Source: Halapricum sp. CBA1109 (lineage in GTDB: Archaea > Halobacteriota > Halobacteria > Halobacteriales > Haloarculaceae). Taken from it: 33,299 nucleotides of DNA. A program made the translations under genes and the position numbers. Under the pieces are notes generated by a model. That model made no database searches and was not told where the DNA came from. It worked only from the letters and a program-made list of their open reading frames with translations. The stretch is from NCBI RefSeq assembly GCF_009741825.1, contig NZ_WPCA01000011.1, positions 1-33,299 on the forward strand. Reading direction: 5' to 3'. Below, in pieces: positions 8,485-16,036 of the stretch (positions within the stretch are counted from its first letter, which is position 1; each line of letters starts with the position of its first letter).

Positions 8485-8611
8485 TGCCGTAGAGTCTCGG
8501 CGTTTAAGAACCTATACTGAACGATAATGCCATAGTTACTTGTCTGTCGCCGGTGGCAGAAACGATCCTGCCCTCGGGCGTGTGGCAGACGCGTGTCAGA
8601 CACGCCACAAA

Positions 8612-8620
8612 GGTTTTTGC
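8612..8620 (+). promoter_or_regulatory. TATA-like element of dacZ
   Basis: GGTTTTTGC lies 24-32 bp upstream of the ATG at 8644. This supports that ATG over an in-frame ATG 51 bp upstream, which would precede the promoter. Confidence 0.4.
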
Positions 8621-8643
8621 CCGTACGTGGGGTGTATCATACA

Positions 8644-9456
8644 ATGGCCGGACTCCGTTCGCTACTCGATGATATCGCCGACGGGGTCGACTCCGTGTTC
8701 CTGTTCTCCCCGAGCACCTCGCTGTACGAATCGACCGTCGAGGACGAGGACCGGACCGTGGTGGTCGTCTCCCCGGAGAACGACGTCGACGCCGACGCCT
8801 ACGTCGTCCTGCCGGTGGAGTTCGCCGACCCGACCGAGCGGGTCCGCTTCGGTATCGAGGGGGCCGTCGACCAGGAGCTGATCGAGGAGACCGACACCGT
8901 CCTCTGTGCGCTGAAGAGCTTCGACGACGACGTCGACACCGTGATGCGGGTCCGCGCGAGCGAGTTCTCCCGCTCGGGCGTCTACGACCTGTTCGTCAAC
9001 AGCCGGGCCGAACCGGGCGTCGTCCGGAACGTCCTCGAAGTCGCGGTCGAACTCGGCAAGAAAGGGCAGAAGGGCAAACCCGTCGGTGCGCTGTTCGTCG
9101 TCGGCGACGCGGGCAAGGTGATGAACAAGTCCCGCCCGCTGAGCTACAACCCCTTCGAGAAGTCCCACGTCCACGTCGGCGACCCCATCGTGAACGTGAT
9201 GCTCAAGGAGTTTTCGCGGCTGGACGGCGCGTTCGTCATCTCCGATTCGGGCAAGATAGTCTCGGCCTATCGCTACCTCGAACCCTCCGCCGAGGGCGTC
9301 GACATTCCGAAGGGGCTGGGTGCCCGGCATATGGCGGCCGGGGCCGTCACCCGGGACACGAACGCCATCGCTATCGTCCTCAGCGAGAGCGACGGGCTGG
9401 TTCGGGCGTTCAAAGGCGGTGAGCTGATCCTCGAACTCGACCCGGAGGCGTACTGA
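8644..9456 (+). CDS. dacZ: Diadenylate cyclase DacZ (c-di-AMP synthase)
   Basis: A 270-residue protein with an N-terminal pyruvate-kinase-like alpha/beta region and a C-terminal DisA_N cyclase domain. The two catalytic signatures are present: DGA at 194-196 (RLDGAFVIS) and RHM at 228-230 (GLGARHMAAGAVTR), the archaeal form of the bacterial RHR motif. The enzyme condenses two ATP to c-di-AMP. DacZ has been characterised in Haloferax volcanii, where its level must be tightly controlled and where a role in osmoregulation was proposed. The start at 8644 is chosen because of the promoter position and because the 51-bp extension reads unlike the family. It overlaps the next gene, a mechanosensitive channel, by one base (TGATG). 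Confidence 0.93.
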   Translation: MAGLRSLLDDIADGVDSVFLFSPSTSLYESTVEDEDRTVVVVSPENDVDADAYVVLPVEFADPTERVRFGIEGAVDQELIEETDTVLCALKSFDDDVDTVMRVRASEFSRSGVYDLFVNSRAEPGVVRNVLEVAVELGKKGQKGKPVGALFVVGDAGKVMNKSRPLSYNPFEKSHVHVGDPIVNVMLKEFSRLDGAFVISDSGKIVSAYRYLEPSAEGVDIPKGLGARHMAAGAVTRDTNAIAIVLSESDGLVRAFKGGELILELDPEAY

Positions 9457-10252
9457 TGGCGTCGCTGCAGATAGACATCCCGGATCTGATACGGGCGCTG
9501 TTCTCCGAACAGGGTGCGGTCGCCGTCGCCGTCGGGATACTGCTGTGCGGCGCTCTTGGCGGCTATCTCGTGTGGCGCGGGACCCGGCGGCTCCTCGTCC
9601 AGCAGGGTGTCGACGAAGCCGTCGAGGGGACGCTGTTCGAACGCTCCGTCCAGAACGTCGGGCTCTCGACGGTCGGACTGCTGGCGATGCTCGCCGCGGC
9701 GGCGGTGTACATCCTCAGCATCCTGCTCGCGCTGAACGTCACGCAACTCGTCGACAGCCAGTTCTTCTGGACGCGCTTTACCGACCTGCTCCCGCGGCTG
9801 TTCGTCGCCGCGCTGGCGGTGATTCTCGGCCTCGTCCTCGGCGACAAGGCGAAGTTGGAGATAGCCGACCGCCTCAAGAGCGTCAAACTCCCCGAGGTCA
9901 GCATCATCCCCGAGATAGTCAAGTACAGCATCTTCTTCATCGCCGGGCTGATAGCGCTCGGGCAACTCGGCGTCGCCACGACGGCGCTGCTCATCCTGCT
10001 CGCGGTGTACACCTTCGGGCTGGTGTTTCTGGCTGGACTGGCCCTGCAGGACCTGCTCACCGCGCCGCGGCCGGGACGTACCTCCTGCTCTCACAGCCGT
10101 ACAGCATCGGGGACGAGGTCAAGATAGACGACACCCGCGGCATCGTTCAGGAGATAGATATGTTCGTCACGCGCGTCGAGAGCGACGGCGAGGAGTACAT
10201 CATCCCGAACCACCGGGTGTTCAAAAGCGGCATCGTCCGGATCCGGAGCTAG
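9456..10252 (+). pseudogene. MscS-type small-conductance mechanosensitive channel, single-base frameshift
   Basis: The N-terminal part has four hydrophobic segments, ending in the pore-lining TM3-like stretch FLAGLALQDLLT. The downstream beta domain (GTYLLLSQPYSIGDEVKID, EIDMFVTRV, YIIPNHRVF) continues in another frame. One missing base at about 10059-10064, in a GC run, explains the break. The repaired protein would be about 265 residues and ends soon after the MscS beta domain, so the usual C-terminal alpha/beta domain is missing or very short. The start overlaps the dacZ stop by one base, so c-di-AMP synthesis and an osmotic release channel are made from one message. Both sides of the break keep family motifs, so a sequencing error is likely. 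Confidence 0.8.
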
Positions 10253-11652: not shown

Positions 11653-13413
11653 ATGGGAACTACGTTCACCCGACGGAAACTGCTGGCTGCGACTGCCGGC
11701 CTCACGGCCGGGGCCAGCAGCGGGTGTGTCAGTTCCATCGGCAACCTGCTCGGCGGCGGCCCGCCGAATCAGGTTTCGGTCCAGATCAAGGCCCAGCCGG
11801 CCGACCAAGACACGGCGTCCGTCCAGATAGCCCGCACGCTCGCGGACCGGTTGCAGGCCGTCGGCATCAACGCGACGGTCGAGTTGCTGCCGGCCTCCCA
11901 ACTGTACAAGGAGGTTCTCGAACAGCACGCCTTCGACATCTACGTGGGCCGGTTTCCCGCGTTGCCCGATCCGGACTACCTCTACGCGCTGTTTCACTCC
12001 CAGTATGGCGGAGACACGGGGTGGCAGAACCCGTTCGGGTTCGCCGACGTGGGGATGGACCAGTTGATCAGCCGCCAGCGCACCCAGGCCGACGGGGACC
12101 GGGCGGGAACTATCGGGGAGGCGCTCGGTATCGTCGCACGGGAACAGCCGATGTCGCCGCTCGTTCGGTCGGACGCCATCGCCGGTATCGGGACGGGGCG
12201 GTTCGAGGGGTGGGAGCAGTTCCCAGCTCGGGATCCGCTGTGGCTCGTCGGTCTCCAGCAGGCCAACGGATCGCCGGTCGAGCCACAGGCCGACAGGAGC
12301 CTCACCGTCGCGACACCGGACGGCGAGCCGACGCGGTCGCTAAACCCACTCAACCGGCGGACGAACGGGCTGGAGATAGCGACGTCGCTGCTGTACGACC
12401 CGCTCGGCCGGTACTACGACGGGCAGTTACAGCCGTGGTTGGCCGAGTCGTGGTTCTGGTCGAGCGACGACGACGACGAGTTGATTGTGCGGCTGAAACC
12501 GGACCTCCAGTGGCACGACGGGACGCCGCTGACGGCCGCGGACGTGGCGTTCACTTATCGGTTTTACTCCGACGCGACGATGGGGAAGTCCGACACCTTC
12601 GCGCCGGTCCCGCGGTATCAGGGGCGGACGGACCTCGTCTCGTCTGTTCGGGTCGCGAACGACCGGACCGTCGGACTGGAGATTGACGCCGCCGACCCGG
12701 TCGCGACGACGGCGCTCTCGGTACCGCTCGTTCCTCGGCACGTCTGGCGCGAGCGGACCGACGTGGTCGACGCCGACCGCGGACTGACCAGCGCCCACAC
12801 GAGCGACAACGAGGACCCGGTCGGGTCGGGCCCGATGGTGTTCGACTCCTGGTCGAACGGGCGGTCGCTCACGCTCACCCGGAACGAGGAGCACCCGCTC
12901 AACCGGGATACGAGCAGTCGCCTCGGCAGTCGGTTCAACGAACTGGCGCTCACGGAACTGGAGTTGCTGGTCGCGCCCTCGGACATCACCGTCGTCGAAC
13001 ACGTCGCACAGAACAACGCCGACATCACGTCGCCGACGCTCGGCCCGTCGTCAGTCGACCGGGTCGAGGACGCCGACGGCGTGGACCTGCTGACGACGCC
13101 GTCCCGGACGATATACCACCTCGGGTTCAACACCCGGCGGCCGGTGCTTCGCAACCCGAACTTCCGGCGGGCGGTCGTCCGTCTCCTCGACAAGCAGGCG
13201 ATGGCCGACGACATCTTCGGCGGGTACGCGACGCCGCTTTCCGCTCCCGTTCTCGGATCGGAGTGGACGCCCGAGTCACTGCAGTTCGACGGGACTGATC
13301 CGCAGGTCCCCTTCCTCGGGAGCGACGACGAACTCAACGAGACGGACGCCCGCGAGACGTTCCGCGAGGCCGGGTTCCGGTACACCGACGGGGGGTATCT
13401 CGTCCAGCGATGA
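11653..13413 (+). CDS. Extracellular solute-binding lipoprotein, family 5 (peptide/nickel type), with permuted lobe order
   Basis: A 586-residue Tat lipoprotein: FTRRKLLAAT is the twin-arginine motif and SSGC (Cys25) the lipobox. Family-5 binding proteins normally begin with LNPL...LYDPL...PWLAESW...WHDGTPLTA and end with a second lobe that follows EAGF. Here that second lobe comes first: IARTLADRLQAVGINATVEL, then AFDIYVGRFPALPDPDYLYALF, spanning about residues 35-205. The normal N-terminal order starts only at LNPL (about residue 230) and runs to ETFREAGF at the very end. The sequence thus looks circularly permuted. The gene overlaps the PAP2 gene by four bases (ATGA). No ABC permease or ATPase genes adjoin, so the ligand and partner transporter are unknown. 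A start at 11653 is fixed by the signal peptide. Confidence 0.88.
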   Translation: MGTTFTRRKLLAATAGLTAGASSGCVSSIGNLLGGGPPNQVSVQIKAQPADQDTASVQIARTLADRLQAVGINATVELLPASQLYKEVLEQHAFDIYVGRFPALPDPDYLYALFHSQYGGDTGWQNPFGFADVGMDQLISRQRTQADGDRAGTIGEALGIVAREQPMSPLVRSDAIAGIGTGRFEGWEQFPARDPLWLVGLQQANGSPVEPQADRSLTVATPDGEPTRSLNPLNRRTNGLEIATSLLYDPLGRYYDGQLQPWLAESWFWSSDDDDELIVRLKPDLQWHDGTPLTAADVAFTYRFYSDATMGKSDTFAPVPRYQGRTDLVSSVRVANDRTVGLEIDAADPVATTALSVPLVPRHVWRERTDVVDADRGLTSAHTSDNEDPVGSGPMVFDSWSNGRSLTLTRNEEHPLNRDTSSRLGSRFNELALTELELLVAPSDITVVEHVAQNNADITSPTLGPSSVDRVEDADGVDLLTTPSRTIYHLGFNTRRPVLRNPNFRRAVVRLLDKQAMADDIFGGYATPLSAPVLGSEWTPESLQFDGTDPQVPFLGSDDELNETDARETFREAGFRYTDGGYLVQR

Positions 13414-14282
13414 CGCTGGTCGACGTGCTCGTACAGGTCGGTGCGTCGACGGTCGCCCTCGTCACGCTCTCGCTGCTCGGCATCGTCGGTATCGACCGGA
13501 TGCGCTCGCTGCGGACCGTCTACCGGGAACGCATCGTCGCCGTATCGCCGTACGTCGGCGTGCTGGGGCTGATACTCCTCGCGAACAGCCAACTCCGGAA
13601 TTTCGGCAACGAGATATCGCTGGACTTCGGGCTCCGGATCACCGGAAACATCTACGACATCGAAGGGGCCTTCGTCGCGTGGGTTCAGTCCTTCCAGAGT
13701 CCGGAGCTGACGTTTTACTTCTCGCTCATCTACGTCTACGGCTACGTCTACCTGCTCGTCTTCCCGTTTCTGGCGTTCGCGATGCTAGAGGAGACCGACC
13801 GGTTCCGGAAACTCGTCATCGCGTACGGCCTCAACTACACCATCGGGTTGGCGTGTTACATCCTCTTCGTCGCCTACGGGCCGCGGAACCTCCTCCCGGG
13901 ACAGGTCGAGGGCCTCCTCTACACCACGTGGCCACAGTCACAACTACTGACCTCGGAGGTCAACACGAACACGAACGTCTTCCCGTCGCTGCACTCCTCG
14001 CTCGCGGTGACCGTCGCGTTGCTCGCCCGCAAGACCCGCGAGGAGTACCCCTACTGGTACCCAATCGCCATCGCGCTAGCGGTCTCGGTGTGTCTCTCGA
14101 CGATGTACCTCGGCATCCACTGGGGGACGGACGTCGTCGCCGGGATACTCCTCGCTCTCCTCTCGGTGCGGGCGTCGGACTGGTTGCTCCCCGTCTTCGA
14201 GACGCGGTTTCCGCCCGCTCGGGTCGTCTACGCGCGGGTCGCCGACCGGGCGGGCGACGCCCTCGGTCGCCTCCGGTCGTGA
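13410..14282 (+). CDS. PAP2-family membrane phosphatase
   Basis: A 290-residue protein with about six transmembrane segments. The PAP2 catalytic motifs are visible: FPSLHSSLAV (motif with SxH, around residue 193) and YLGIHWGTDVVAG (HxxxD motif, around 234). The spacing is typical of the PAP2_3 / inositol-phosphorylceramide-synthase-like group. These enzymes remove or transfer phosphate from lipid phosphates such as phosphatidate or polyprenyl diphosphate on the outer face of the membrane. In haloarchaea a role in recycling dolichyl phosphate for glycosylation is conceivable but unproven. Translation is coupled to the preceding binding protein through an ATGA overlap, an unusual pairing. Confidence 0.85.
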   Translation: MTLVDVLVQVGASTVALVTLSLLGIVGIDRMRSLRTVYRERIVAVSPYVGVLGLILLANSQLRNFGNEISLDFGLRITGNIYDIEGAFVAWVQSFQSPELTFYFSLIYVYGYVYLLVFPFLAFAMLEETDRFRKLVIAYGLNYTIGLACYILFVAYGPRNLLPGQVEGLLYTTWPQSQLLTSEVNTNTNVFPSLHSSLAVTVALLARKTREEYPYWYPIAIALAVSVCLSTMYLGIHWGTDVVAGILLALLSVRASDWLLPVFETRFPPARVVYARVADRAGDALGRLRS

Positions 14283-14335: not shown

Positions 14336-14419
14336 GCGAGGGTAGCCAAGCCTGGAAACGGCGGCGGACTCAAGATCCGCTCCCGTAGGGGTCCAAGGGT
14401 TCAAATCCCTTCCCTCGCA
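14336..14419 (+). tRNA. tRNA-Leu (CAA anticodon)
   Basis: The acceptor GCGAGGG (14336-14342) pairs with CCCTCGC (14412-14418), followed by discriminator A at 14419; CCA is not encoded. The anticodon arm is GCGGA-CTCAAGA-TCCGC, giving anticodon CAA, which reads TTG. The variable region, TCCCGTAGGGGTCC, forms the short extra stem of a class II (leucine) tRNA. The T arm is AAGGG-TTCAAAT-CCCTT. There is no intron. The 3' half is copied imperfectly downstream. Confidence 0.93.
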
Positions 14420-14485
14420 CTGTTGGCCACTACGGCCACCCAAACAGTGCAGGAAGATCCGTTCGGAGCGATCTTCCCTCGCAAA
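14399..14485 (+). repeat. Direct repeat copy A, starting in the tRNA-Leu T arm
   Basis: This 87-bp unit starts inside the tRNA (GTTCAAATCCC...) and continues past it through CACTGTT...AACAGTG and GGAAGATC...GATCTTCC, both inverted repeats, to a second short TTCCCTCGCA. Copy B at 14740-14827 matches it closely, except for a few bases in the loop of the first hairpin. Confidence 0.85.
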
Positions 14486-14524
14486 CACTCTCTAAAATCT
14501 GCTCGGGAGCCACAGCTATACGGT

Positions 14525-14663
14525 GGCGGACTCAAGATCCGCTCCCGTAGGGTCCACGCGAGCGACGCGAGCGTGGACTCGGAAGACTCGCTGTCGGCGA
14601 ACGGTGAAACCGTGAGCCAGCGAGTCTTCCGGTGGTCCAAGGGTTCAAATCCCTTCCCTCGCA
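14525..14663 (+). repeat. Partial tRNA-Leu copy with an 80-bp hairpin-rich insert in the variable arm
   Basis: From 14525 the sequence repeats the anticodon arm and start of the variable arm of tRNA-Leu (GGCGGACTCAAGATCC onward). It then departs for about 80 bp and resumes at GGTCCAAGGG (14634) to finish the tRNA 3' end at 14663. The insert has two perfect hairpins: GTCCACGC/GCGTGGAC (14552-14559 with 14571-14578) and GGAAGACTCGCTG/CAGCGAGTCTTCC (14581-14593 with 14618-14630). The 5' acceptor and D arm are absent, so it cannot make a normal tRNA. Confidence 0.85.
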
Positions 14664-14702
14664 TCGCTGTGTGGCCCATCCCGGGCCGCACAAGATGCAC
14701 AC

Positions 14703-14754
14703 GGAAGGATTTGAACGTCGTCGGACAACTCCGACGGGAGTTCAAATCCCTTCC
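14703..14754. repeat. Large imperfect inverted repeat built from the tRNA-Leu 3' end
   Basis: GGAAGGATTTGAAC (14703-14716) is the reverse complement, with one base skipped, of GTTCAAATCCCTTCC (14740-14754), which is the tRNA T-arm/acceptor sequence. An inner stem (GTCGGA with TCCGAC) extends the hairpin. It is a further, inverted copy of the tRNA end. Confidence 0.75.
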
Positions 14755-14827
14755 CTCGCACTGTTGGCCACTACGGCCCCTCGCAACAGTGCAGGAAGAT
14801 CCGTTCGGAGCGATCTTCCCTCGCAAA
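14740..14827 (+). repeat. Direct repeat copy B of the tRNA-Leu 3' end and flank
   Basis: This second copy of the unit at 14399-14485 includes the last 21 bp of the tRNA (14740-14760) and the following two hairpins. It lies just before the stop codon of the DUF418 gene. No integrase gene lies between the copies. Confidence 0.85.
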
Positions 14828-14843: not shown

Positions 14844-16036
14844 TTACGACCGAACCAGCGGCTGGAACTCCCTGTAGGTGAGCGTCCGCCAGAGCCACTC
14901 GACCGGGCCAAAGCGGAAGAACCGAATCCACAGCACCGACAGCGAAATCTGGACGGCCCAGAAGGCGAGGACCATCCCGAGGGCCTCGGCGCGGCCGACG
15001 CGGCCGAACAGGCCCAGCCCGTGGCCGTAGAAGACGCTCGTGGCGACGACGGTCTGGAGGAGGTAGTTCGTGAAGGCCGTGCGGCCGACGGCCGCGAACG
15101 CGCGCGTGAGAGGACCGCCGGGTCGCCAGCGGGCGTACAGCGTGACGAGGCCGACGTAGCCGCCGGCGACGAGGAGGCTGGCCCAGTAGTTGAACTGCCG
15201 CCAGATCAGCGCCGCGTCGGCGCTCCAGTCGGCGGCCTCGATGTAGCGGACGCCCAACAGGACGATGCCGACGCCGACGGCGCCGCCGGCGACGAGGAGC
15301 CGATACAGTCGGGTCGAGCGCTCGCCGGTGAGGACGCCCCAGCGGTAGAGTGCCATCCCCAGCAGCATCGTGCCGCCGACGCGCCAGAACGTCTGCCCGA
15401 GGAAGCCGCTGGTCTGGCGCTCGAACGCGGTCGGGACGCGGTGGGACAACTGCTCGGTCCAGCCGCCGCGGTAGGTCGCTATCTCGGCTTGGAGCACCGA
15501 CCCCGCGGGGGCCCACTGGTCGCTATCGCCGCGCCGCCGCCCGCGAGGCCGACGGCTAACTCCGTCAGCGAGGGGACCAACAGGAGGACGACGCCGACGC
15601 CGGCGAGCGTCCGTGCCGGGGTGTCGACGAACAGGACGATGACCAGTCCACAGAGGGCGTACGCGACGAGGATGTCGCCGTACCAGAGGAGGTAGGCGTG
15701 GGCGAGGCCGATGACGAGCAGCCACGCGGTGCGCCGGTAGTGGTAGCCCATCGCGGGGTCCTCGGACTGACGGCGTTTCTCGACGAACAGGACGGTCCCG
15801 GCCCCGAACAGCGCCGAGAACACCGTGATGAACTTCAGTTCCGCGAAGACGTGGCCGAGAAGCCACGCCCAGTAGTCCAGTCCCGTGAACCCGCCGTAGG
15901 CGGTCGGGTTGAGCAGCGTCACTTCCGGCATCGAGAAGACTCTGACGTTGATCAGGAGGATGCCGAGGACCGCGACGCCCCGGAGTGCGTCGAGACTCAC
16001 GATCCGTTCGGTGGGAGGTGTCGGGCCGTCTGTCAC
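14844..16036 (-). pseudogene. DUF418 family membrane protein, single-base frameshift
   Basis: The N-terminal frame from the GTG at 16036 reads ERIVSLDALRGVAVLGILLINV, the hallmark start of DUF418/YeiB-like proteins, with several transmembrane segments. The C-terminal frame has the DUF418 core: RTAFTNYLLQTVVATSVFY, GLGLFGRVGRAEAL, and the ending FGPVEWLWRTLTYREFQPL. The frames join if one base is added near 15525-15540, within a GC-rich run. The repaired protein would be about 397 residues with roughly ten membrane spans. DUF418 proteins are related to membrane acyltransferases, but their substrates are mostly unknown. The gene lies 55 bp downstream of the PH-like gene in the same direction. 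Confidence 0.82.

Follow-up and report, generated by a model that had tools for sequence, protein, structure and literature searches.

A circularly permuted family-5 solute-binding lipoprotein encoded beside a PAP2-family protein in haloarchaea, and its permuted relatives in bacteria and archaea

Natural circular permutation has been described for solute-binding proteins (SBPs) of families other than family 5. The tethered binding protein TpMglB-2 (Tp0684), classed as 'Type Ic / Cluster Bc', carries such a permutation, for which its authors raise adaptation to membrane anchoring (PMC4990184). Glycine-betaine-binding proteins related by circular permutation were detected by structure comparison with CPSARST (PMC2395249). 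SBP-like lipoproteins linked to envelope enzymes are described for mycobacteria: LpqZ and FecB, which lack a transporter, interact with such enzymes (PMC12802301), and LpqW is a further example (PMC3229680). Here we analysed a 33,299-nucleotide stretch of Halapricum sp. CBA1109 (contig NZ_WPCA01000011.1, positions 1 to 33,299; hereafter the window), in which the gene at 11653-13413 encodes an SBP lipoprotein of family 5 (PF00496) whose two halves stand in rotated order. The initial annotation of the window, made from the sequence alone, had read this gene as a circular permutation for which it knew of no description in the family, and a partial survey of the open-licence literature likewise returned no report of circular permutation in family-5 or cluster C proteins. 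A 1999 paper by Fukami-Kobayashi is cited under a title on 'domain dislocation' in such proteins. What appears to be new here is the occurrence of permutation in family 5, with unusual breadth and recurrence.

The gene and its partner are laid out as follows.

11653 to 13413, plus strand: SBP lipoprotein gene, 586 amino acids
11653 to 11727, plus strand: predicted twin-arginine translocation (Tat) type signal peptide, with the twin arginine at residues 7-8 and a lipobox up to Cys25 (sequence inspection)
11728 to 11760, plus strand: linker from the lipid anchor to the rotated domain, limits approximate (residues 1-28 are predicted with low confidence, see below)
11761 to 12288, plus strand: moved segment, residues 37-212, corresponding to the C-terminal part of canonical family-5 SBPs (Pfam, hhalign and a weak structure match)
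12289 to 13410, plus strand: remaining segment, residues 213-586, corresponding to the N-terminal part of canonical family-5 SBPs and ending at the cut after ETFREAGFRYTDGG
13410 to 14282, plus strand: PAP2-family membrane phosphatase/phosphotransferase-like protein, 290 amino acids (PF14378, E 1.5e-20; PF01569, E 4.7e-12)

The window protein is a natural circular permutant of the family-5 fold. PF00496 (SBP_bac_5) matched the whole protein with 174.6 bits (cut-off 32.4), and it did so in non-canonical order, model positions 296-363 coming before 2-284. Scored alone, the moved piece reached 24.3 bits, below the Pfam cut-off; by profile alignment with hhalign, residues 40-194 corresponded to canonical residues 356-507 (E 4.7e-17), and residues 201-579 corresponded to canonical residues 23-355 (E 1.8e-44). 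The boundaries of the two pieces are complementary on the canonical protein, in agreement with the clean cut and the well-conserved halves that had been claimed for this gene. In an alignment of 63 rows, G24 and C25 are invariant and R7 and R8 are kept in at least 90%, suggesting that the protein is exported by the Tat pathway and lipidated.

AlphaFold2 folded the permuted order with a predicted local distance difference test score (pLDDT) of 91, falling below 50 at model residues 1-28. Solved family-5 structures topped the match lists of the window SBP, and the two pieces gave complementary matches, strong for the long piece and weak for the short piece, whose matches fell on the C-terminal halves of chains such as NikZ and AppA. 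Together with the PF00496 match, this predicts a two-lobed cluster C fold. Wherever the sequences were inspected in detail, the cut falls in the loop that links the 'A..LL..AGY' helix to the strand after it. Joining the old N and C termini and opening the chain in this loop leaves the signal peptide and lipobox first and would place the anchor on lobe 2. We take domain III of OppA to span approximately 271-486, so that a cut near 361 falls in lobe 2, and we assume that lobe 1 holds both canonical termini of family-5 SBPs; on these limits, the rotation probably shifts the lipid anchor from lobe 1 to lobe 2.

Similar to the canonical DppA, OppA, NikA and AppA (PF00496), the window SBP is homologous to the family in both halves over nearly the full length, with the same predicted fold, and dpp-type permease genes lie near most of the permuted relatives examined, as they do near canonical members. 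It differs from them in the rotated halves, in the cut inside lobe 2 (presumed limits) and in the PAP2 gene that replaces the permeases. Similar to TpMglB-2, it is a tethered permuted binding protein for which an analogous anchoring idea can be raised; however, TpMglB-2 is described as having a cluster B/type I fold, another cut and a poorly conserved moved part, and its origin from a different gene was considered, whereas in family 5 the homology of the two halves is clear and closely related proteins occur in either order. The glycine-betaine-binding proteins are also permuted SBPs but belong to another family.

With the window SBP as query, a match at E 1e-20 or better was found in 201 of 292 haloarchaeal genomes, a count that may include other SBP subfamilies; the best matches were nearly full length. 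From 53 fetched haloarchaeal regions we took 62 SBP copies, each a single unbroken tblastn match in permuted order, some of them on single-contig genomes. The hidden Markov models (HMMs) of the two pieces were built from these same rows and, for the 62 copies, just restate the alignment; the long piece alone was seen in one further open reading frame (ORF) of these regions. Neither outcome that the initial annotation had named as refuting its reading came about: the N-terminal segment does correspond to the C-terminal part of the model, and close homologues have the permuted order as well. As regards misassembly, the host assembly is indeed fragmentary (266 contigs, 78.65% complete), with neighbouring window genes that look frameshifted by eye. 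Such an artefact, including a chance fusion of two SBP fragments, is nevertheless vanishingly improbable given the complementary boundaries and the confident fold, and it is ruled out by the same order in 62 copies and by named plasmid and genome records.

The coupling to a PAP2 gene and not to a permease, also noted at the outset, extends to most of the family. In the window, the PAP2 start at 13410 lies inside the end of the SBP gene, a 4 bp overlap with its stop. A PAP2 gene lies directly downstream of the SBP in 57 of the 62 copies (largest gap 318 bp), with a spacing of at most 10 bp in 46 of the 57 and an overlap in 31, as judged by the chosen start codons, and a permease match was found in 2 of the 53 regions. 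The partner is a clear member of the PAP2_3 family (PF14378), with a model match of 74.2 bits against a cut-off of 27, and His195, His237, Asp241 and Arg159, which we take to be its active-site residues, are present in all 58 aligned rows (57 partners and the window). Plasmid records of Haloferax gibbonsii and Halobaculum halophilum annotate the pair as 'ABC transporter substrate-binding protein' and 'phosphatase PAP2 family protein', and a limited survey of the open-licence literature found no report of this haloarchaeal pairing. The pair is doubled in tandem (SBP-PAP2-SBP-PAP2) in eight regions (L048, L049, L050, L052, L054, L059, L060 and L061).

Computation establishes the rotation and its conservation, the confidently predicted fold, the close pairing with PAP2 and the recurrence elsewhere. 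Beyond this, we favour the reading, at a probability of roughly 0.6, that this membrane-tethered permuted lipoprotein has kept the ability to bind a small ligand in the space between the two lobes and works with the adjoining PAP2 protein instead of an ATP-binding cassette (ABC) permease. The ligand would be bound at the outer face of the membrane, and the role of the SBP would be to offer PAP2 a substrate that is phosphorylated or lipid-linked, or else to switch PAP2 once the ligand is bound; the SBPs of the haloarchaeal PAP2 branch would then not feed an ABC permease. The second of these two forms, in which the SBP senses a ligand and controls PAP2 without passing on a substrate, for example in envelope or lipid-head-group remodelling, is possible if doubtful. 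It would draw on the same counts of PAP2 and permease neighbours and, by analogy, on the SBP-like lipoproteins tied to envelope enzymes; sensing and substrate delivery fit the present data alike. LpqW, LpqZ and FecB resemble the window protein as SBP-like lipoproteins tied to membrane enzymes but act with other enzymes, and residues 25-385 of LpqW (2grv) align to the long piece, which gives LpqW the canonical order over that stretch. Several points weigh against a functional pair of this kind. PAP2 does not adjoin the SBP in 5 of the 62 copies (L073, L076, L079, L080 and one of two in L046), an ATPase match occurs in 8 of the 53 regions, gene adjacency alone equally fits a shared regulon, and the lobe that carries the anchor is argued from the domain limits of OppA.

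The permutation had been presented as a feature of the window copy; the rotation itself stood, but its scope had to be corrected to a wide clade and several origins. When a 63-row profile was run against 392 genomes of the phylum, more distant permuted proteins turned up in haloarchaea, as did one from a different class, and among 41 ORFs of the corresponding loci (L087 and L098-L135) the piece HMMs assigned 18 as permuted, 20 as canonical and three as long piece only. The distant haloarchaeal permuted SBPs have a permease nearby in 16 of 17 cases and a PAP2 gene in none of the 17. Plasmids of Alphaproteobacteria gave single-piece tblastn matches over 83-92% of the query, and all four that were read were permuted. 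Three of these four, from Nitratireductor, Roseomonas and Ketogulonicigenium, belong to annotated operons of an SBP with two permeases and two ATPases, and so does a permuted SBP of the haloarchaeal Natrononativus. In a scan of genome contigs, the best 80 of at least 584 loci were scored and yielded 83 ORFs, 54 permuted, 25 canonical and four with the long piece only. Within these best 80 loci, the permuted hosts include Alphaproteobacteria, Brevibacillus, Dethiosulfatibacter, Anoxynatronum, Alkalispirochaeta and Desulfurococcaceae archaeon AG1, together with metagenome bins named as Beta- and Gammaproteobacteria, Desulfobacterota, Trueperaceae, Chloroflexi, Atribacteria and Bathyarchaeota; a permease match lay near 48 of 53 permuted and 24 of 24 canonical loci. 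Permuted family-5 SBPs are thus a wide clade across bacteria and archaea with permease genes mostly nearby, and a permutation peculiar to the PAP2 branch is ruled out by the permuted proteins in other haloarchaea, in another class, on plasmids and in bacteria. A Pfam survey of 10 hand-picked genomes of the phylum (7 haloarchaeal) gave 75 main family-5 matches. Of these, 53 reach model position 324 or more, whereas 21 stop within positions 279-297 and one at 275; another 13 rows match the moved piece.

Close relatives of both orders were found in two groups. In an Archaeoglobus-like genus (g118, in the class of G449), the SBP is permuted in three genomes, one of them a single contig of 2,178,400 bases, and canonical in four, while an eighth genome, 54% complete, had no match. 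The two orders are 81-89% identical per half (pair L160:6004-7563 and L162:5878-7428). In the single-contig genome, permuted residues 30-192 correspond to canonical 353-515 and 196-520 to 29-353, the signal peptide (residues 1-30) is still in front and 60% identical between the orders, and Pfam matched the pieces at model positions 290-367 and then 1-279. The sister genera (three genomes) have a canonical SBP with dppB and dppC next downstream, and the rotation is therefore most simply the derived state in this genus. The permuted genes are divergent from dppB, and in the four canonical relatives the SBP lies away from dppBCDF; no SBP match was found near their dppB in the fetched stretches, one of which ends at a contig end.

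The second group is a haloarchaeal dpp-type family of about 660 amino acids, in which permuted L261:1347-3353 and canonical L265:1317-3320 share 73% identity in both halves and are each followed by a permease gene, the two permeases being 86% identical. Its further members include the following.

L262, 394 to 2886: family member
L263, 783 to 3068: family member
L264, 1195 to 3177: family member

Of 34 ORFs scored in this family, 28 were permuted and six canonical. Its tree (32 rows after removal of two duplicates) has three order changes, two of which are forced by starred branches, and an approximately unbiased (AU) test rejected the grouping of all permuted rows (p 1.85e-4). Canonical proteins make up a mere 5 of the 32 rows, and they were selected for their similarity to a permuted query. 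A further permuted SBP, L114:4416-6155, adjoins dpp-type genes and represents a third, separate origin; its C-terminus gave a PGF-CTERM match that just passes the threshold (18.9 bits against a cut-off of 18.8).

The number of origins was assessed on trees built with both pieces set in one common order. In a 140-row tree, for which 67 of 207 rows had been dropped (14 duplicates or near-identical rows, and 53 of the 62 window-family rows so that a random nine stayed), 82 permuted rows clustered with one long-branch canonical row, L121. A 60-row tree was hand-picked from these 140 rows with L121 excluded; in it, 32 permuted rows formed one group (100/98), the Archaeoglobus-like permuted proteins were nested in canonical relatives (100/99 and 100/100), and L114 stood apart from the large permuted group. 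AU tests rejected a single group of all permuted rows (p 3.75e-5), L114 with the Archaeoglobus-like permuted rows (1.35e-54) and L114 with the large permuted clade (1.8e-14). A single origin is thus rejected, and the main tree holds at least three separate origins. Two trees of interior columns were built without nine long-branch rows; the long-piece tree recovered the large permuted group (support 93, no star), and the short-piece tree was poorly resolved, with five order changes, the large permuted group not coming out as one (three changes), and starred branches forcing just one. Canonical order is the rule in family 5 at large, and since the tree is unrooted, the direction of change in the large clade rests on this general knowledge. 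Among 254 genes with both pieces (duplicates included), none had the moved piece on both sides; matches outside the tested gene, not each checked, seem to be adjacent SBP copies or weak hits. The genetic route may have been duplication followed by trimming, or excision and re-entry.

The window PAP2 branch is long and set off from the other members of the permuted clade (100/100 for the branch), which bears on an alternative explanation, namely that the window protein is an ordinary ABC-importer SBP in permuted form, with its permease encoded elsewhere and PAP2 just co-transcribed. Most other permuted family-5 SBPs examined do have a permease gene nearby, four of them in operons with two permeases and two ATPases, and the four canonical Archaeoglobus-like copies that sit away from dppBCDF show that orphan SBPs exist. 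We nevertheless consider this quite unlikely, as the PAP2 gene is beside nearly all haloarchaeal copies, often overlapping, with permeases in so few of their regions, and as the branch lies apart from the rest of the clade. Beyond the proposed work of this branch with PAP2, the family-5 fold may be prone to one circular permutation, with at least four order changes at the same lobe-2 loop, a haloarchaeal dpp-type family in which the two orders alternate and may even have switched in both directions, and one ancient rotated lineage that left ABC transport and became the binding partner of a PAP2 enzyme; we advance this tentatively, at somewhat short of even odds.

Elsewhere in the window, positions 8593-10252 hold a diadenylate cyclase gene (DACZ_N and DAC matches) followed by a gene without a Pfam match that looks mechanosensitive-channel-like by eye; near 10060 this gene seems to run on in another frame, as a frameshift would produce. 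At 14844-16036, two minus-strand ORFs that overlap in different frames may, by eye, be one broken membrane-protein gene, perhaps through a sequencing error. The region 14336-14827 contains a tRNA-Leu (14336-14420), direct repeats from its 3' end at 14399, 14643 and 14740, and a 43-nucleotide exact repeat at 14443 and 14785; these repeats may be what is left of tRNA copies or of attachment sites.

Family-5 SBPs are among the best-studied proteins of transport, and a single order of their halves is built into the standard Pfam model. Because a wide clade is rotated, Pfam scans clip such proteins, as in the 21 of 75 main matches that stop at the cut. The close pairs in the Archaeoglobus-like genus and in the haloarchaeal dpp-type family are natural before-and-after experiments on a natural permutation and on a shift of the anchor of an importer, and the PAP2-linked branch points to a pair of binding protein and enzyme in haloarchaea.
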